NCBI GenBank assembly: GCA_031256175.1
Contig: JAIRRC010000025.1
Span: forward strand, 1-33,504
Reading direction: 5' to 3'
Source: Rickettsiales bacterium
GTDB taxonomy: Bacteria; Pseudomonadota; Alphaproteobacteria; Rs-D84
DNA length: 33,504 nucleotides
A program made the translations under genes and the position numbers. Positions 1-33,350 of the stretch are shown here, piece by piece; the stretch's first letter is position 1, and every line of letters begins with the position of its first letter. Below the pieces are notes generated by a model. The model worked only from the letters and a program-made list of their open reading frames with translations. It was not told the DNA's origin and ran no database searches.

Positions 1-885
1 CAGAAAATCATGCTGAAACTTTGCGATGTTTTGAACTGCAAGGTATCCGACCTTTTCATAAAAGAAAACGACAACGACGCCATAAAGCACTGGCAGACCG
101 AAATGTCGCGCCGCTTCAAGGAAAACGAAAATTCCGGCCTTAAAATCTTCGGCGCGGGCTTGCGCCACATCCGAAAGGCCATCGGCAAAACAATAGTTCA
201 GGCCGCCAAAGACGCCAAGATGACCCTTTCCGTCTATCACCATATCGAAGTCGGGCAGCGCGACGTTTATGAAGACGAAATCGCCAATCTTGCCGCCATG
301 ACCGGCCGCAGCCCCGAGACCTTGATAAAGGAAATCTATCAGCTCCATGAAAACGGCAAGCTGAAAAAAGCCAAGGACGCAACCAACGACGCGCCCAAAT
401 CCATAACCATGTCCGGCGGAAACTTCGGCGGCATAAACGTCGCCGGCGTGCTATATGGCGCCAAGATGTACGAGCTTACACGCAACCGCATGATTCCGAT
501 TTTCGGCGTGCCAAGCGCCGATGGAATCGCATTCAAAAAGTCCGACGAGAAAATGATTATCGCGCCCGCCGCACTGGAAGGCCAGAACGAAATCTATGCC
601 GTCATTCCGAATTCGCGCCGCATGGGCAACGTCCTGCCGCCGCGTTCCTACGCGCTTGTCAATCCGGACGCCGCGGTGCAGTCGGGCGACCTGGCGCTGT
701 TATTGCCGAAGAATTTCGCGGACATAAAGGAAGGCGACAAGGCCGCCGCACAAATCGTTTCCGTGCGCGAGAATCCCGACGACGGCAAGCTTACCGGCCG
801 CCTGTTCAATCCGGACGAAAAAATCGCCATCGGTCCGAACAGCAAGGGAAAGCTGCATAAGATTATTCAGATTATCATTGAGTAA
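1..885 (+). CDS. Double-HTH (XRE) transcriptional regulator with S24/LexA-like C-terminal domain, 5' truncated by the window edge
   Basis: The frame is open from base 1, and the first residues (LKLCDVLNCKVSDLF) look like the last helix of an HTH_3 domain, so the real start lies upstream of the window. A second XRE-type HTH follows, from LRHIRKAIGKTI to about SPETLIKEI. The C-terminal half (IPIFGVPSADG, then YALVNPDAAVQSGDLALLL) resembles the S24 LexA/CI fold. A serine is present in PNSRRM where the catalytic Ser is expected. The region where the Lys of the Ser-Lys dyad normally sits reads AAAQIVSVR, so self-cleavage may be lost. It is probably a DNA-binding repressor; its target is unknown. 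Two palindromic repeats lie immediately downstream. Confidence 0.75.
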   Translation, partial: QKIMLKLCDVLNCKVSDLFIKENDNDAIKHWQTEMSRRFKENENSGLKIFGAGLRHIRKAIGKTIVQAAKDAKMTLSVYHHIEVGQRDVYEDEIANLAAMTGRSPETLIKEIYQLHENGKLKKAKDATNDAPKSITMSGGNFGGINVAGVLYGAKMYELTRNRMIPIFGVPSADGIAFKKSDEKMIIAPAALEGQNEIYAVIPNSRRMGNVLPPRSYALVNPDAAVQSGDLALLLPKNFADIKEGDKAAAQIVSVRENPDDGKLTGRLFNPDEKIAIGPNSKGKLHKIIQIIIE

Positions 886-892
886 GGATGAG

Positions 893-917
893 GTCCCCGG
901 TCTTCGCCGGGGATGAC
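893..917 (+). repeat. Palindromic intergenic repeat, copy 1
   Basis: The stem TCCCCGG/CCGGGGA encloses a TCTTCG loop and ends in the family signature ATGACA. It begins just after the stop of the repressor-like gene. It is one of a set of intergenic palindromes in this window whose stems differ but whose right end is conserved. Confidence 0.7.
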
Positions 918-935
918 AATGGATATATACGATTT

Positions 936-963
936 GGGATTCCCGCCGACGCGGGAATGACAA
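936..963 (+). repeat. Palindromic intergenic repeat, copy 2
   Basis: The perfect 8-bp stem ATTCCCGC/GCGGGAAT (939-946 with 951-958) has a 4-nt loop and is followed by GACAA. It lies about 20 bp from copy 1 in the same orientation. The reading frame of the next gene is open through both repeats, but that extension is repeat DNA rather than coding sequence. Confidence 0.75.
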
Positions 964-980
964 ATTGGAGAGAGAGAATT

Positions 981-1634
981 ATGAAAGACGCAAGACCGAA
1001 TGTGGCCGCGCAGCGGCTGCTGAACCTTTACCGCCAGTATCACGTCGTCGTCGGAAAATGGGCGACGCTCAATCCCGTATTCCTTAAAGAAGGCGCGCCG
1101 GAAGTTCTGGCCGAACTGGAAAAACTTTCCACCGGAAAAAAACTTTCCCAGCACATCAAGAACCTTCGCGCGGGAAAGACCGCAAGCGACGCAATCGACC
1201 CGGACCTGCTGCCCTACAACGGAATGATGGAGGTCCAAACCGGAGGCGGCGCGGCGCGCCTCGCCGAGCGCGAGATGTCGCAGCTTGCGCGCGAGCTTCA
1301 CGGATTCGTTCCCGCCGCCGAAAATTTGGAGCGCATAAAGTCCCTGCCCTTCGTGAAATCCCTTGGCGAAAACTGGCGCGACGGGATTGCCGCGGCGCTT
1401 TCGAATTCTTCCGAACTATCGGCCGCTTGGGACGTAGTTTTGAAACTGGACACCGCGACCGGGCTTTGGTTCAAGGCCGGGCGCCTATTGTCCGAAACGC
1501 CGTCGGAACGCATGCGCGCCGAGATTCAGGCGGATATGCTTCAATACGAGAATTATCTTCCGATGTTCGGCGCCGCCGGCGCGGATTTGCTTGGCCAGCT
1601 TAAAAAGGCAATCAGCGTTCAAGAGAACGAATAA
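981..1634 (+). CDS. Hypothetical protein, 217 aa, family not recognised
   Basis: I chose the ATG at 981 because a GGAG/GAGAGA purine stretch precedes it at 967-976. A GTG at 888 would add 31 residues read through two palindromic repeats. The product is soluble, with no signal peptide or membrane segment, and looks mostly helical (alternating charged and Leu/Ala positions, for example in the middle section SQLARELHGF). Third-position GC and amino-acid make-up fit a real gene. I do not recognise a family and infer no function. It is flanked by palindromic repeats on both sides and sits in the same direction as the repressor-like gene upstream. Confidence 0.65.
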   Translation: MKDARPNVAAQRLLNLYRQYHVVVGKWATLNPVFLKEGAPEVLAELEKLSTGKKLSQHIKNLRAGKTASDAIDPDLLPYNGMMEVQTGGGAARLAEREMSQLARELHGFVPAAENLERIKSLPFVKSLGENWRDGIAAALSNSSELSAAWDVVLKLDTATGLWFKAGRLLSETPSERMRAEIQADMLQYENYLPMFGAAGADLLGQLKKAISVQENE

Positions 1635-1641
1635 TGCCGGG

Positions 1642-1668
1642 ATACCGCGGTTAAACCGCGGTATGACA
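1642..1668 (+). repeat. Palindromic intergenic repeat, copy 3
   Basis: Bases 1642-1664 are a perfect 23-bp palindrome (an 11-bp arm beginning ATACCGCGG, a single central A, then the complementary arm). It ends in the shared ATGACAA. It begins 8 bp after the stop at 1634 and could also act as a transcript-end hairpin, but no T-tract follows. Confidence 0.8.
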
Positions 1669-1683
1669 ATTATATTGCGCGGC

Positions 1684-1712
1684 TTGACGCTTTTATGTTA
1701 AAATGATATATA
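1684..1712 (+). promoter_or_regulatory. Sigma70-type promoter for the small secreted protein
   Basis: TTGACG at 1684-1689, a 17-bp spacer, then TATATA at 1707-1712. It lies in an AT-rich island between two palindromic repeats, about 45 bp before the start codon at 1757. Position and spacing are good; the -10 matches consensus at 4 of 6 bases. Confidence 0.5.
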
Positions 1713-1721
1713 CAAATTGAG

Positions 1722-1746
1722 ATGCTGACCTTCGTCAGCATGACGG
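1722..1746 (+). repeat. Palindromic intergenic repeat, copy 4, in the 5' leader
   Basis: The 8-bp stem ATGCTGAC/GTCAGCAT encloses a CTTC loop, then ATGACGGG. If transcription starts at the promoter upstream, this repeat lies inside the mRNA leader, and its right end runs into the likely ribosome-binding purines (GGGGTGG) of the next gene. Confidence 0.75.
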
Positions 1747-1756
1747 GGTGGAAAAA

Positions 1757-2080
1757 ATGATGAAAAAAATATTAATGTTCTCCGTTTTTGTTTGCTCCGT
1801 TTCGGGCGGCGCCTATGCGTGGCAACTGGAAACGCAGCGGACGCTGGGCTCCGGCGAGGGGAAAAACCAGAACGTGCTTGTCAAATGCACGACCGCGTCC
1901 GGCCAGGTTTCAAGCCAGACTTGCAGCGTCAGGCGCTATGCCAAATGCCAGAAGACAAGCGGCGGCGGCAAGAATTGCAACGGATGGCAGCCTTGGTCCG
2001 ATGTTCGGAATCCAGGCCGCGGATTCACCACATGGCAGGACGCGGCGAAAACTTGCTGCGCAGCCAAAGGCCTTAAATAA
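1757..2080 (+). CDS. Small secreted protein with cysteines, family not recognised
   Basis: The start could be GTG 1748, ATG 1757 or ATG 1760. I chose 1757 because GGGGTGG ends 5 bp upstream and the GTG lies inside those purines. The N-terminus is a classic signal peptide (Met-Lys-Lys, a hydrophobic core, then cleavage near GGAYA-W), so the product is exported. The mature part is about 85 residues, basic and Trp-containing, with Cys in VKCTT, TCSV, AKCQ and NCNG and an adjacent pair in KTCCAAKG, which suggests disulphides in the periplasm. No enzyme motif is visible. A promoter and a leader-embedded palindrome precede it, and a short hairpin follows the stop. Confidence 0.65.
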   Translation: MMKKILMFSVFVCSVSGGAYAWQLETQRTLGSGEGKNQNVLVKCTTASGQVSSQTCSVRRYAKCQKTSGGGKNCNGWQPWSDVRNPGRGFTTWQDAAKTCCAAKGLK

Positions 2081-2086
2081 AAATGA

Positions 2087-2103
2087 ATCGCGCTTCGCGC
2101 GAT
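2087..2103 (+). other. Short hairpin after the secreted-protein gene
   Basis: ATCGCGC/GCGCGAT with a TTC loop begins 6 bp after the stop at 2080. There is no T-tract, so it is a weak terminator candidate at best. It may instead protect the mRNA 3' end. Confidence 0.4.
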
Positions 2104-2116
2104 AGTTTCCGCGCAA

Positions 2117-2144
2117 TGGACCCCGGCCTGTGCCGGGGTGACGA
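2117..2144 (+). repeat. Palindromic intergenic repeat, copy 5
   Basis: The 7-bp stem CCCCGGC/GCCGGGG (2121-2127 with 2132-2138) is flanked by TGGA on the left and TGACGAG on the right. These match the flanks of the other palindromes in this window. Confidence 0.7.
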
Positions 2145-2267
2145 GTTGGGTTGGGCACGTCCCGACGAATCACAGGAAAACCATCCTGTTGAAACATCAA
2201 GACATTATTCCTAATATATGAACGCAGGCGGTATGTCGAAACTGCGATTGGGCGTTGTTCCTCGTCC

Positions 2268-2450
2268 GTGTTCTACAACGACTACGAGTCCGCGGCTAAA
2301 CGCGGGCAGAACGCGGCCAACAACGTCGCGAACAACGTGGACGACAACCCGAATGAACGGGGCGCGTTCGCCGTCGCTTTCGATACTTGCAAATTTCAGG
2401 GAAAAAGTTTCGCCGACCCGGGGGACGCGGCAAGCGCCGCAGAGGCCTGA
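2268..2450 (+). pseudogene. Possible small gene or 5'-damaged gene remnant
   Basis: A 60-residue frame from a GTG at 2268 has convincing codon use (mostly C or G in third positions) and the sequence FYNDYESAAKRG through to DPGDAASAAEA. It has no credible ribosome-binding site, and the frame stays open upstream only to 2193. In a neighbouring frame, ATG 2218 or ATG 2233 starts a signal-peptide-like stretch (MSKLRLGVV). A real gene may therefore have lost its reading frame near 2255-2270. I cannot tell a remnant from a short functional gene with a weak start. Confidence 0.35.
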
Positions 2451-2496
2451 AAAACACAAGGCTGGACATATCGCCTTCTCGGGCCCTTTGGGCGAG

Positions 2497-2522
2497 GTCC
2501 CCGGTCAAGCCGGGGACGACAA
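2497..2522 (+). repeat. Palindromic intergenic repeat, copy 6
   Basis: The 8-bp stem GTCCCCGG/CCGGGGAC (2497-2504 with 2510-2517) has loop TCAAG and tail GACAA. Relative to copy 1, the outermost stem position has changed on both arms (here G-C, elsewhere an A-T style pair), so pairing is kept. A second small GC hairpin lies just to its left at 2478-2496. Confidence 0.7.
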
Positions 2523-2553
2523 TTGAAGGGTCCGGGAAAACACGACGACCGGG

Positions 2554-2600
2554 GAACCCGCCCCGCACGCTTAACCGCGGGCCGGCGGGTTCGATTTTCT
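2554..2600 (+). terminator. Terminator-like hairpin upstream of pyrG
   Basis: A 9-bp inverted repeat GAACCCGCC/GGCGGGTTC (2554-2562 with 2584-2592) has a second nested stem CCCGC/GCGGG and is followed by GATTTTCTTATT. The long GC stem plus a modest T-rich tail suggests factor-independent termination of whatever is transcribed from 2200-2550, which insulates pyrG. Confidence 0.5.
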
Positions 2601-2602
2601 TA

Positions 2603-2632
2603 TTGCGCGGGCCTGGGAATTTTTGCTAGATT
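2603..2632 (+). promoter_or_regulatory. pyrG: Candidate promoter for pyrG-comEC
   Basis: TTGCGC at 2603-2608, an 18-bp spacer, then TAGATT at 2627-2632 with TG two bases upstream of it. It is weaker than the other promoters in the window, but it lies in the only AT-rich stretch between the terminator-like hairpin and pyrG. Confidence 0.35.
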
Positions 2633-2660
2633 TTCATGGAAAAGGATTTTAGTTATCACT

Positions 2661-2687
2661 GGATACTGGCCTTCGCCAGTATGACGG
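2661..2687 (+). repeat. Palindromic intergenic repeat, copy 7, in the pyrG leader
   Basis: The 8-bp stem ATACTGGC/GCCAGTAT (2663-2670 with 2675-2682) has a CTTC loop, preceded by CTGG and followed by GACGGG. The loop and tail are the same as copy 4, but the stem is different. It ends about 20 bp before the pyrG start. Confidence 0.75.
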
Positions 2688-11242: not shown

Positions 11243-11264
11243 TTTTCCCTTCCTTTTCAATGAT

Positions 11265-11293
11265 GAGATGCCCGGTCGAAGCCGGGCATGACA
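11265..11293 (+). repeat. Palindromic intergenic repeat, copy 8
   Basis: The 8-bp stem ATGCCCGG/CCGGGCAT (11268-11275 with 11282-11289) ends in ATGACA. It is the only repeat of the family seen in the - strand half of the window and fills the gap between the rplQ stop and the thrS start, both on the - strand. It could serve as a transcript-end hairpin for rplQ, but no T-tract is present. Confidence 0.75.
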
Positions 11294-14658: not shown

Positions 14659-15687
14659 TTATTTATACGGATTCTCGAATTTCTTCGAAAGCTCGGCTAT
14701 ATTCTCGGGCGGCCAGCCGGGAACGTCCATGCCGAACGCAAGGCCCATCGCTTCCAGCTGCGCTTTGATTTCGTTCAAGGATTTGCGGCCGAAGTTCGGG
14801 GTTTTCAGCATATCGTTTTCCGTCTTTTGCACAAGCTCGCCTATATAATTCACCTTGTCGTTCTTCAAGCAATTGTTCGCGCGGACCGACAATTCCAATT
14901 CGTCCACGTGCTTCAACAATTTCGGATTGAACGGAAGCGACGCAAGGATGTCTTTCTTTTCGTCTTCCACTTCCGCCGCGACGTCCTCGAAATTGATGAA
15001 CGGATTCATCTGGTCGGCGACTATGCGCGCGGCGAAGGCCACGGCGTCTTCCGGCGAGGTCGCGCCGTTCGTCTTGACCGACAGCTGCAATTCGTCGAAG
15101 TCCACCCTTTGGCCGACGCGGGTTTCGCGGACGTCGACCGCGACGTTAAGGACCGGCGAATAAATCGAATCGACCGCGATGAAGCCAATCGGGTCGCCTT
15201 CCTTCGAATTCTGTTCGGCCGGGACGTAGCCCTTGCCGAGGCCAAGATTGATTTCCATGTTAAGGACGCCGCCTTCGGATATATGGCAAAGCACGATGTC
15301 TTTATTGATGACTTCCAGGCCGCTGCCGCATTCAATCATGCCGCTGGTCACGACCACTGGGCCCTTTGCCTTCAAGGTCGCCTTCAAATTGTTTTCCGTT
15401 TCGGCCTTGAAATAGACGCCCTTCAAGTTAAGGATGATGTCGGGCACGTCTTCCCTGATTCCCGATATGGACGAGAATTCGTGCTGGACCCCCTCTATCC
15501 GTATCGAACGCGGCGCGCAGCCCTGCAAGCTGGACAGCAGGACGCGGCGAAGCGCGGTGCCCAGAGTATGGCCAAAACCCTTTTCCAAGGGTTTCGCAAT
15601 TATGGTCGCAAGGTTCGGATTGTCGTTGTCGATTTTTATCTCAAGTTTTTTCGGCTTGCTTAAAGTCGTCCAGTTTTTTTCAATCAT
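14659..15687 (-). CDS. rpoA: RNA polymerase alpha subunit
   Basis: The 342-residue product scaffolds RNA polymerase assembly through its N-terminal domain (GFGHTLGTALRRVLLSSLQGC). Its C-terminal domain contacts UP elements and activators. The DNA-contact patch SVRANNCLKN and the helix-hairpin-helix NFGRKSLNEIK are intact. The tail GMDVPGWPPENI is the alphaproteobacterial form. It is the last gene of the 17-kb ribosomal superoperon, and its stop lies 3 bp from the bidirectional terminator. rplQ, its usual downstream partner, is not adjacent. Confidence 0.98.
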   Translation of the reverse strand: MIEKNWTTLSKPKKLEIKIDNDNPNLATIIAKPLEKGFGHTLGTALRRVLLSSLQGCAPRSIRIEGVQHEFSSISGIREDVPDIILNLKGVYFKAETENNLKATLKAKGPVVVTSGMIECGSGLEVINKDIVLCHISEGGVLNMEINLGLGKGYVPAEQNSKEGDPIGFIAVDSIYSPVLNVAVDVRETRVGQRVDFDELQLSVKTNGATSPEDAVAFAARIVADQMNPFINFEDVAAEVEDEKKDILASLPFNPKLLKHVDELELSVRANNCLKNDKVNYIGELVQKTENDMLKTPNFGRKSLNEIKAQLEAMGLAFGMDVPGWPPENIAELSKKFENPYK

Positions 15688-16116: not shown

Positions 16117-16131
16117 TTCGATTAAGCTCCC

Positions 16132-16509
16132 TTATTTGCCTTTGCTGGCCGCGCCCGCGACCGCGATTCTTTTGCCCTTGCGCGTGCGCGCGTTGGTGCG
16201 CGTGCGCTGTCCGCGGACCGGAAGGCGGTTCCTGTGGCGGATGCCGCGATACGAGCGAAGGTCCTGCAAACGCTTTATGTTCATCGCGATTTCTTTCCTG
16301 ACGTCGCCTTCGACTTTCAGATTCTTTTCGATGTAATTGCGGATATTGATGACGTCCGTGTCGGTCAAATCCTTGGTCCGGAGCGAGTCCTTGAAGCCAA
16401 GCGCCTTTACGATTTCCTTCGCCTTTTTCGGGCCGATTCCATAGATATAAGTAAGGCTTGTTTCAACCCTTTTTTCGGTCGGGATATTCACACCTGCTAT
16501 ACGAGCCAA
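16132..16509 (-). CDS. rpsM: 30S ribosomal protein S13, TTG start
   Basis: S13 sits in the head of the small subunit and bridges to the large subunit and P-site tRNA. I start it at the TTG at 16509. This gives the canonical N-terminus [10 protein letters not shown] and a 6-bp gap to the AAAAGGAG box (16516-16523). The TTG two codons upstream (16515) would touch that box directly. The 125-residue product carries [13 protein letters not shown] and [25 protein letters not shown] (two blocks) and a basic tail. A promoter at 16536-16563 lies in the gap to secY. Confidence 0.96.
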
Positions 16510-32379: not shown

Positions 32380-32832
32380 ATGGCAATCAACAACGACATA
32401 TCGAAAATCTATATCTCGGGCGACCATCGGGGCGTCGGACTTAAACTCTATCTTGTTCAGATGCTACGGTCGATGGGCTACGAAGTTCATGATTTGGGCG
32501 TCGACAATCCCGAAGTTATGGCCGATTTCCCGGTTGTCACCCAATGGACGACCGACGCCATGCTTAAAGACAAATTGTCGCGCGGAGTGGTCGTGTGCGG
32601 GCACGGCGGCGGCGTCGAAATCGCCGCGAACAGGTTCCGCCATATCAGGGCGACGCGCGTCAGCAATCCGGCCCAGGCCCGCGAAGACCGGATTCACGAC
32701 GACACGAATGTCATCGCCTTTGGCGCGGACGATATAGATATGGAAATGGCGCTGCTGTCGGTCCAAGCGTTTCTTGAAACGCCTTTCGACGCGGCCTTTC
32801 GACGCGTCCGCCGCATAAAGCAAATCAGCTGA
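32380..32832 (+). CDS. Divergent RpiB/LacAB-family sugar-phosphate isomerase
   Basis: The family interconverts ribose- and ribulose-5-phosphate or related sugar phosphates. The 150-residue product has the RpiB layout: ISGDHRGVGLKLYLVQML at the start, DLGVDNPEVMADFP, then VVVCGHGGGVEIAANRFRHI and the later HDDTNVIAFGADD. The catalytic Cys (VVVC) is kept, but the usual CGTG loop reads CGHG, and the HNDTN motif reads HDDTN. These changes at substrate-facing positions suggest a different substrate, so I give no gene symbol. The ATG at 32380 has a GAGGGG box; a TTG at 32359 lies inside the promoter region. Confidence 0.8.
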   Translation: MAINNDISKIYISGDHRGVGLKLYLVQMLRSMGYEVHDLGVDNPEVMADFPVVTQWTTDAMLKDKLSRGVVVCGHGGGVEIAANRFRHIRATRVSNPAQAREDRIHDDTNVIAFGADDIDMEMALLSVQAFLETPFDAAFRRVRRIKQIS

Positions 32833-33216: not shown

Positions 33217-33231
33217 GGACAAAATATCAAT

Positions 33232-33297
33232 GTCATTCCCGTGCGGTTCGCGGCGAAGCCCGCAAGGGCGAAGACGGATGACACGGGAATCCAGGTA
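33232..33297 (-). repeat. Palindromic repeat, copy 10, reverse orientation with long loop
   Basis: ATTCCCGTG/CACGGGAAT (33235-33243 with 33282-33290) is a 9-bp stem with a 38-bp GC-rich loop. Read on the - strand it has the full family form: CCTGGATTCCCGTG at the left, CACGGGAATGACA at the right. The loop itself contains shorter GC pairings. Confidence 0.75.
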
Positions 33298-33311
33298 ATA
33301 AGCAATTTCAT

Positions 33312-33350
33312 TATTACCTGGATGGTCGGGTGGGGCCCCGACCATGACAA
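33312..33350 (+). repeat. Palindromic repeat, copy 11, head to head with copy 10
   Basis: ATGGTCGGG/CCCGACCAT (33322-33330 with 33337-33345) is a 9-bp stem that starts with CCTGG and ends in ATGACAAATGAC. The left ends of copies 10 and 11 form a further inverted repeat, CCAGGTAATA/TATTACCTGG (33291-33300 with 33312-33321), so the pair makes a three-stem structure. Confidence 0.75.

Follow-up and report, generated by a model that had tools for sequence, protein, structure and literature searches.

The contig JAIRRC010000025.1 (assembly GCA_031256175.1) of a Rickettsiales bacterium, 33,504 nucleotides long and referred to here in its entirety as the window, carries a family of short palindromes between its genes, and raises the question of what these hairpins are and how they have spread. 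Judged by their sequence features, they are CGTC-tagged repetitive extragenic palindromes (REPs) read from the other strand, known elements of a super-family published in 2013 by Di Nocera et al. and typical of Alphaproteobacteria (PMC3733652). In the window's genus, single elements lie almost uniformly in one orientation along each contig, a polarity that does not extend to CGTC REPs in general. We found no description of replication-linked orientation of CGTC REPs in the open-access literature, and a term search of PMC3733652 for replichore, leading strand and lagging returned nothing; the chromosome polarity of the singles is the part not found in print.

The published CGTC REPs have an unpaired CGTC tag (or TGTC/CCTC), AT at the stem base, stems of 8-9 bp, loops of 4-5 nt and mostly a CCA tail, and they include dRS3 of Neisseria and RPE-6 of Rickettsia as members of CGTC-1 (PMC3733652). 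Read on the other strand, the unit found here has the form [CT]GTC-AT-stem-loop-stem-AT-CCA, with a tail of either CCA or CTC. In all curated elements the tag GAC follows the right arm directly or one base on, and is itself mostly followed by A or G. Stem and loop lengths are mostly 8+4 or 9+5, the exceptions being a 7-bp TCCC type with loops of 5-6 nt, ACCC stems and a few 10+3 hairpins. In the ACTGG, CCTGG and AATGG types the stem is preceded by TGG, and CTC/CCC tails occur in the GAG/GGG types. Within the order, 97 of 190 genomes matched a covariance model of the family; at class level, 122 of 388 high-completeness genomes did. The REP-type character proposed in the original prediction, which was made from the window's sequence alone, is thus borne out by the match to the elements of Di Nocera et al. 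(PMC3733652).

A strict scan of the window for stems of at least 7 bp adjoining TGAC returned nine sites, compared with a mean of 2.2 (range 0-6) in 20 order-2 Markov simulations. Eight of these (894, 939, 1642, 1722, 2120, 2663, 11268 and 33322) are among the ten copies first listed, while the ninth, at 32665, is imperfect and chance-like. The remaining two copies were recovered by reading: 2497-2517 has an 8-bp stem, a 5-nt loop and a GACA tag and is too divergent for the strict TGAC scan, and the copy listed at 33235 is a minus-strand element with a 38-nt loop that forms a head-to-head pair with its plus-strand neighbor across a 31-nt spacer with complementary ends. All ten hairpins are therefore present, although their description required revision. 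The proposed left end TGGA stands at 2120, 2663, 33322 and, on the minus strand, 33291, but is replaced elsewhere by GATGAGG, TTTGAG/GGG or GCCGGG. Several stem types do occur, but not a different stem in each copy, as 894 and 2497 share a TCCCCGG core. The seven leftmost copies, described as intergenic, lie outside confident genes; however, the 2497 copy overlaps a doubtful open reading frame (ORF) of 102 aa, and those at 894 and 939 fall inside an ORF if it starts at the upstream ATG (888) and outside it if it starts at the ATG at 981.

The family extends far beyond the window, which is contig C2 of a metagenome-assembled genome (MAG), G000, of 786,212 bases in 48 contigs and 91.6% completeness. 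Loci related to its pyrG gene come from gut alphaproteobacterial MAGs, such as Candidatus Enterousia and bins labeled 'Rickettsiales bacterium', some of which are presumably from termite guts; the pyrG of JAIRUP010000002.1 (isolate Cyl330_bin36) is 86% identical to that of the window. The pattern TGGAN{16,22}ATGACA matched 33 times in G000 and the reversed pattern not at all. A covariance model built on four window copies (R1) found at least 141 places at E ≤ 10 and at least 131 at E < 7e-4, both lower bounds drawn from 150 of 548 candidates scored, so that a genome-wide search of the kind originally proposed finds copies across the genome.

A hairpin scan over 343 kb of G000 (44%) yielded 152 raw hairpins; the 126 curated ones, retained on the basis of their left flank, fell into several stem types, each tied to a left flank of its own. 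ACAATGG goes with ACCCCGGC; TTATTACTGG with ATACTGGC, ATGCTGGC and ACCCTGGC; ACAATTTGAG with ATGCCGAC, ATGCTGAC and ATTCCGAC; ACGATTTGAG with ATTCCCGC; TATTACCTGG with ATGGTCGGG and ATTCCAGC; GATGAGG with TCCCCGG and TCCCGGG; and GCCGGG with ATACCGCGG. The conserved stretch reaches about 6-12 nt beyond the stem on the left, and further in one type, and about 4-6 nt beyond it on the right, with sharp boundaries that delimit a repeated unit of about 36 nt. The unit consists of a left flank of 6-12 nt, a stem of 7-10 bp, a loop of 3-6 nt and a GAC[AG] end; several stem types, each associated with a particular flank, have proliferated as single units.

We assessed pairing in 65 elements (38 distinct) picked only by a flank and a tag at fixed distance. 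Watson-Crick pairs filled 95.7% of stem cells, whereas 2000 shuffles of the 3' letters averaged 66.6% and never exceeded 74.0%, and sliding the partner out of register gave 18.9-35.0%. The stem was a perfect 8 bp in 56 of the 65; eleven extra pair types occurred among these elements, and wobble pairs occupied 2 of 304 cells on the TGGA...GAC strand. The covariation noted originally is real and far above the shuffles, and reflects a limited number of copied stem types, not a new stem per copy.

We next turn to how these units lie along the contigs of G000 and two further genomes of the genus, G092 and G048, using the stronger matches of each (131 of 141, 61 of 64 and 112 of 137, respectively). 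Among these, singles greatly outnumbered head-to-head pairs (115 vs 8 in G000, 61 vs 0 in G092 and 104 vs 4 in G048). Neighbors within 150 nt stood in the same orientation 22 times and head to head 6 times. With pairs set aside, the minority orientations of the contigs held only 5 of the 106 singles of G000, 2 of the 60 of G092 and 5 of the 103 of G048; random orientation over 20,000 runs gave means of 34.1, 20.0 and 38.9 and minima of 22, 10 and 25. Every stem type in the hairpin scan of G000 follows the orientation of its contig. Gene strand has no bearing on this: the nearest gene shares the element's strand in 90 of 170 cases, as do 50.4% of coding bases, and an orientation linked to genes was rejected on these figures. 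Local spread of one copy per contig was likewise rejected as the sole cause, since all types are co-oriented, the sign tracks strand skew across contigs and orthologous gaps agree.

Orthologous gaps between G000 and either G092 or G048 provided 29 comparisons with at least one element. Ten of these, at nine distinct gaps of G000, held elements on both sides, and here orientation was the same in 10 of 10 and the flank-and-stem type in 0 of 10; in the one-sided cases the element was present in G000 only (15) or in the other species only (4). These gaps reflect either repeated insertion with an orientation set by the place or exchange in situ without turning. One further site keeps the same type in G000 and G092 and lies inside a block of about 130 nt (approximately 16130-16260 of G000:C9 and 14960-15090 of G092:C4) that is identical in the two species, within surroundings of about 83% identity. 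This block also deserves mention in its own right: it holds a long palindrome (TATTTGCATTAT...ATAATGCAAATA) together with a CCTGG-ATTCCAGC element, and had no match in Rfam. A long-loop unit like that of the pair at the right end of the window also occurs in G092, in a gap that has an ortholog in G000.

In this genus, element orientation largely tracks strand composition. We measured GC skew at fourfold-degenerate sites, adjusted for gene strand, in ORFs of at least 300 aa, with contig G048:C4 left out, and obtained values on the TGGA...GAC strand of -0.120 ± 0.007, -0.125 ± 0.006 and -0.179 ± 0.009 in the three genomes. The sign of the skew agreed with element orientation on 20 of the 22 contigs that had a skew above 2 standard errors and a majority orientation (31 examined). 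As a rule, the leading nascent strand is the G-rich one, and its sequence is that of the lagging-strand template; the [CT]GTC end would thus be placed on the lagging-strand template. Orientation and skew are observed, and from skew we infer that the strand reading [CT]GTC...CCA, which is the G-rich one, is the lagging-strand template. In the window, the elements occupy the plus strand, and the genes for EF-Tu, L17 and a putative EF-G (a long ORF beside EF-Tu) the minus strand, which is what the replication reading predicts.

We tentatively favor, at somewhat under even odds, a reading in which CGTC REP singles are oriented with the chromosome because they were inserted as hairpins into the lagging-strand template. 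A single-stranded copy of the element would fold as a hairpin, and the folded copy would enter lagging-strand template DNA exposed at the fork, in a manner resembling IS200/IS605 insertion, although no Y1 transposase was found in the MAG. With the folded hairpin as substrate, stem pairing would be kept. Three steps of this reading are putative: that replication direction is the cause, that the target is the single-stranded lagging-strand template and that the hairpin acts as substrate in folded form.

Several observations weigh against this reading. The candidate inserting enzyme was not found, G000 (91.6% complete) having no match to PF01797 or NF047646, and no insertion event was seen. A blastn search for exact empty sites was made against G092 and G048, whose intergenic DNA, at about 80% identity, is too diverged for target sites to be read. 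On the window's contig the skew is not significant (0.009 ± 0.017), G092:C1 breaks the skew rule, and the 142-kb contig G048:C4 runs opposite to it, with 7 minus and 2 plus singles and a strongly negative skew (+0.183 on the element strand). Intergenic skew does not follow coding skew (+0.022, +0.007 and -0.011 after masking in the three genomes). The contigs with dnaA were of little help in placing the origin: G048:C1 has no element listed, and the two singles and two pairs listed for G000:C46 all lie to the same side. In the other genera examined, the polarity is absent or reversed. Within the sister genus, the relation to skew is reversed in G037 on all five significant contigs, although its orientation coherence is not significant once clusters are collapsed (P = 0.08), its elements lying in G-rich clusters; G104 shows no coherence (P = 0.31), and head-to-head pairs prevail in G057 and G084. 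Complete single-contig genomes from three other families show no significant polarity (8 of 13, 16 of 24 and 17 of 33 singles, among 150 of 322 matches listed), and many head-to-head pairs occur among the matches listed.

Two of these places are unusual in themselves. Over 40 kb of G048:C4 (40001-80000), where elements stand on the 'wrong' strand, raw GC skew is -0.24 and -0.20, quite unlike the remainder of the genome as sampled, and this segment is perhaps foreign DNA or a misassembly. In G037, ATACCGGC elements form tandem-like clusters within G-rich repeats (GATGACATGAGTGGGCGGGGG) on contigs C12, C4, C8 and C9, and their orientation runs against the rule of the window's genus.

The original prediction named a RAYT-like (REP-associated tyrosine transposase) enzyme as the mover, and the elements could be REPINs mobilized in trans by a RAYT that is missing from the MAG or has been lost, an explanation that we consider unlikely. 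The Y1_Tnp profile (PF01797) matched 4 of the 190 genomes of the order and not G000. The profile for REP-associated tyrosine transposases (NF047646) matched 7 of 190 at E ≤ 0.001, one of them above the cut-off, and none of G000, G092 and G127. All seven, congener G048 among them, belong to the 97 repeat-positive genomes, and none of the 93 repeat-negative ones has a match (P ~ 0.008, one-sided, computed by hand); the G048 gene (E = 1.1e-22) has CGTC repeats about 240 bp downstream. G000 further contains at least eight head-to-head pairs, with near-fixed spacing in the sampled part, and the use of the lagging-strand template by IS200/IS605 enzymes (PMC6006769) would suit a RAYT. However, no RAYT was found in 90 of the 97 repeat-positive genomes, G000, G092 and G127 among them, and a RAYT neighborhood for the CGTC repeats, sought at the RAYT-like loci of relatives, was not found, as these repeats border no such locus in the order. 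The RAYT-type genes of G048:C7 and G160:C74, which match NF047646 at or above the cut-off, are instead bordered by different inverted repeats of their own. CGTC REPs elsewhere are likewise reported by their authors to lack a dedicated transposase (PMC3733652). A RAYT link for the window hairpins is not supported.

Oriented singles could also arise by asymmetric decay, in which head-to-head pairs are the mobile form and one half is lost according to replication direction. The left flank of a single does equal the half-spacer of pairs, with ACAATTTGAG, for instance, present on either side; two genomes of the sister genus, G057 and G084, have mostly pairs; and REPIN theory derives singlets from doublets (PMC3116915). 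Against this, singles far exceed pairs in G000 and G092, same-orientation neighbors exceed head-to-head ones, no remnant of a second half was seen upstream of the 12-nt flank, and the high share of perfect stems is unlike decayed remnants. As the singles are intact, unlike decayed REPIN singlets, we prefer direct insertion of singles and regard asymmetric decay as improbable. We give similarly little credence to selected polar sites, whereby the hairpins mark orientation for replication, segregation or repair and misoriented copies are removed. KOPS and Chi are such polar orientation marks, the polarity is near-complete in three species, and orthologous gaps keep orientation while the element type changes. 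Under such selection one would not look for the freely changing stem sequences, the reverse or absent polarity of the sister genus, the many family genomes without elements or the uneven copy number within the genus (5 matches among 36 candidates scored in G127 against 35-38 in the other three, also among candidates scored). Finally, transcribed hairpins that stabilize or terminate mRNAs would fit the finding that elements are fewer between divergent genes (32) than between convergent ones (54), a bias already known for REPs (PMC3733652). Yet orientation is indifferent to gene strand, G-T pairs, which selection on RNA would allow, are almost absent on the element strand, and no Rfam family matches the window, and we judge an RNA-level role highly improbable.

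Table 1 Coordinates of the CGTC-REP elements of the window and of two RAYT-type genes in other genomes. Elements are written as left flank / stem-loop-stem / tag.
Feature	Position	Strand	Basis
CGTC-REP single, GATGAGG / TCCCCGG-tcttcg-CCGGGGA / TGACA	884..918	+	Strict scan, curated hairpin scan
CGTC-REP single, ACGATTTGGG / ATTCCCGC-cgac-GCGGGAAT / GACA	929..962	+	Strict scan; E 1.6e-8; seed of covariance model R1
CGTC-REP single, GCCGGG / ATACCGCGGT-taa-ACCGCGGTAT / GACA	1636..1668	+	Strict scan, curated hairpin scan
CGTC-REP single, ACAAATTGAG / ATGCTGAC-cttc-GTCAGCAT / GACG	1712..1745	+	Strict scan; seed of R1
CGTC-REP single, CGCGCAATGG / ACCCCGGC-ctgt-GCCGGGGT / GACG	2110..2143	+	Strict scan; seed of R1
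CGTC-REP single, GCGAG / GTCCCCGG-tcaag-CCGGGGAC / GACA	2492..2521	+	Reading, curated hairpin scan
CGTC-REP single immediately upstream of pyrG, TTATCACTGG / ATACTGGC-cttc-GCCAGTAT / GACG	2653..2686	+	Strict scan; seed of R1
CGTC-REP single between the minus-strand thrS and L17 genes and opposite to both, CAATGATGAG / ATGCCCGG-tcgaag-CCGGGCAT / GACA	11258..11293	+	Strict scan, curated hairpin scan
CGTC-REP long-loop variant, ATTCCCGTG/CACGGGAAT enclosing a 38-nt loop that itself contains a hairpin; left half of head-to-head pair	33231..33300	-	Reading
CGTC-REP, TATTACCTGG / ATGGTCGGG-tggggc-CCCGACCAT / GACA; right half of head-to-head pair	33312..33349	+	Strict scan, curated hairpin scan
RAYT-type transposase gene, bordered by GGGGTCTCCTGACCCC palindromes	L183 1423-1920 (G048:C7)		
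RAYT-type transposase gene, long GTGGGGCGACTTTGTCCC...CCTGCCCCACC repeats on both sides	L184 1396-1875 (G160:C74)		

The two RAYT-type genes with border repeats of their own resemble TIRYTs (PMC3733652). A second RAYT-like class was also observed, as frames of 205-259 aa in G057, G121, G097, G081 and G160 (L207, L208, L209, L211 and L212); these match NF047646 mostly in two pieces around an insertion, and CGTC repeats are absent from their borders.

CGTC REPs are common in Alphaproteobacteria, as the class-wide matches above illustrate, and a strict chromosome orientation that is independent of both genes and element type offers a physical clue to how they spread, one that points to single-stranded DNA at the fork. 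In the fragmented MAGs of this genus, element orientation may also help to assign contigs to the two chromosome arms.

Set beside known systems, the elements are closest to the CGTC-1 REPs (PMC3733652), with which they share the tag, the AT base, the 8+4 or 9+5 hairpin, the CCA-type tail, several stem types per genome, an intergenic location and the lack of an associated transposase gene. They differ from the CGTC REPs described there in that stems of 7 bp (TCCC) or 10 bp and CTC-type tails occur in some units, that singles dominate and same-orientation neighbors exceed head-to-head ones, whereas head-to-head dimers predominate and head-tail arrangements are negligible in the published set, and that singles are oriented with the chromosome (PMC3733652). 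GTAG REPs and REPINs with a RAYT (PMC3116915, PMC2817692) are similar in their short hairpins, high copy number and occasional head-to-head pairs with structured spacers; the elements found here, however, have a [CT]GTC tag, intact singles in place of decayed ones and no linked RAYT. The IS200/IS605 elements IS608 and ISDra2 (PMC6006769) have an orientation tied to the lagging-strand template and use a hairpin as substrate, both of which are putative features of our elements; unlike them, the CGTC REPs of this genus have no coding capacity and reside in a genome in which no Y1 transposase was found.

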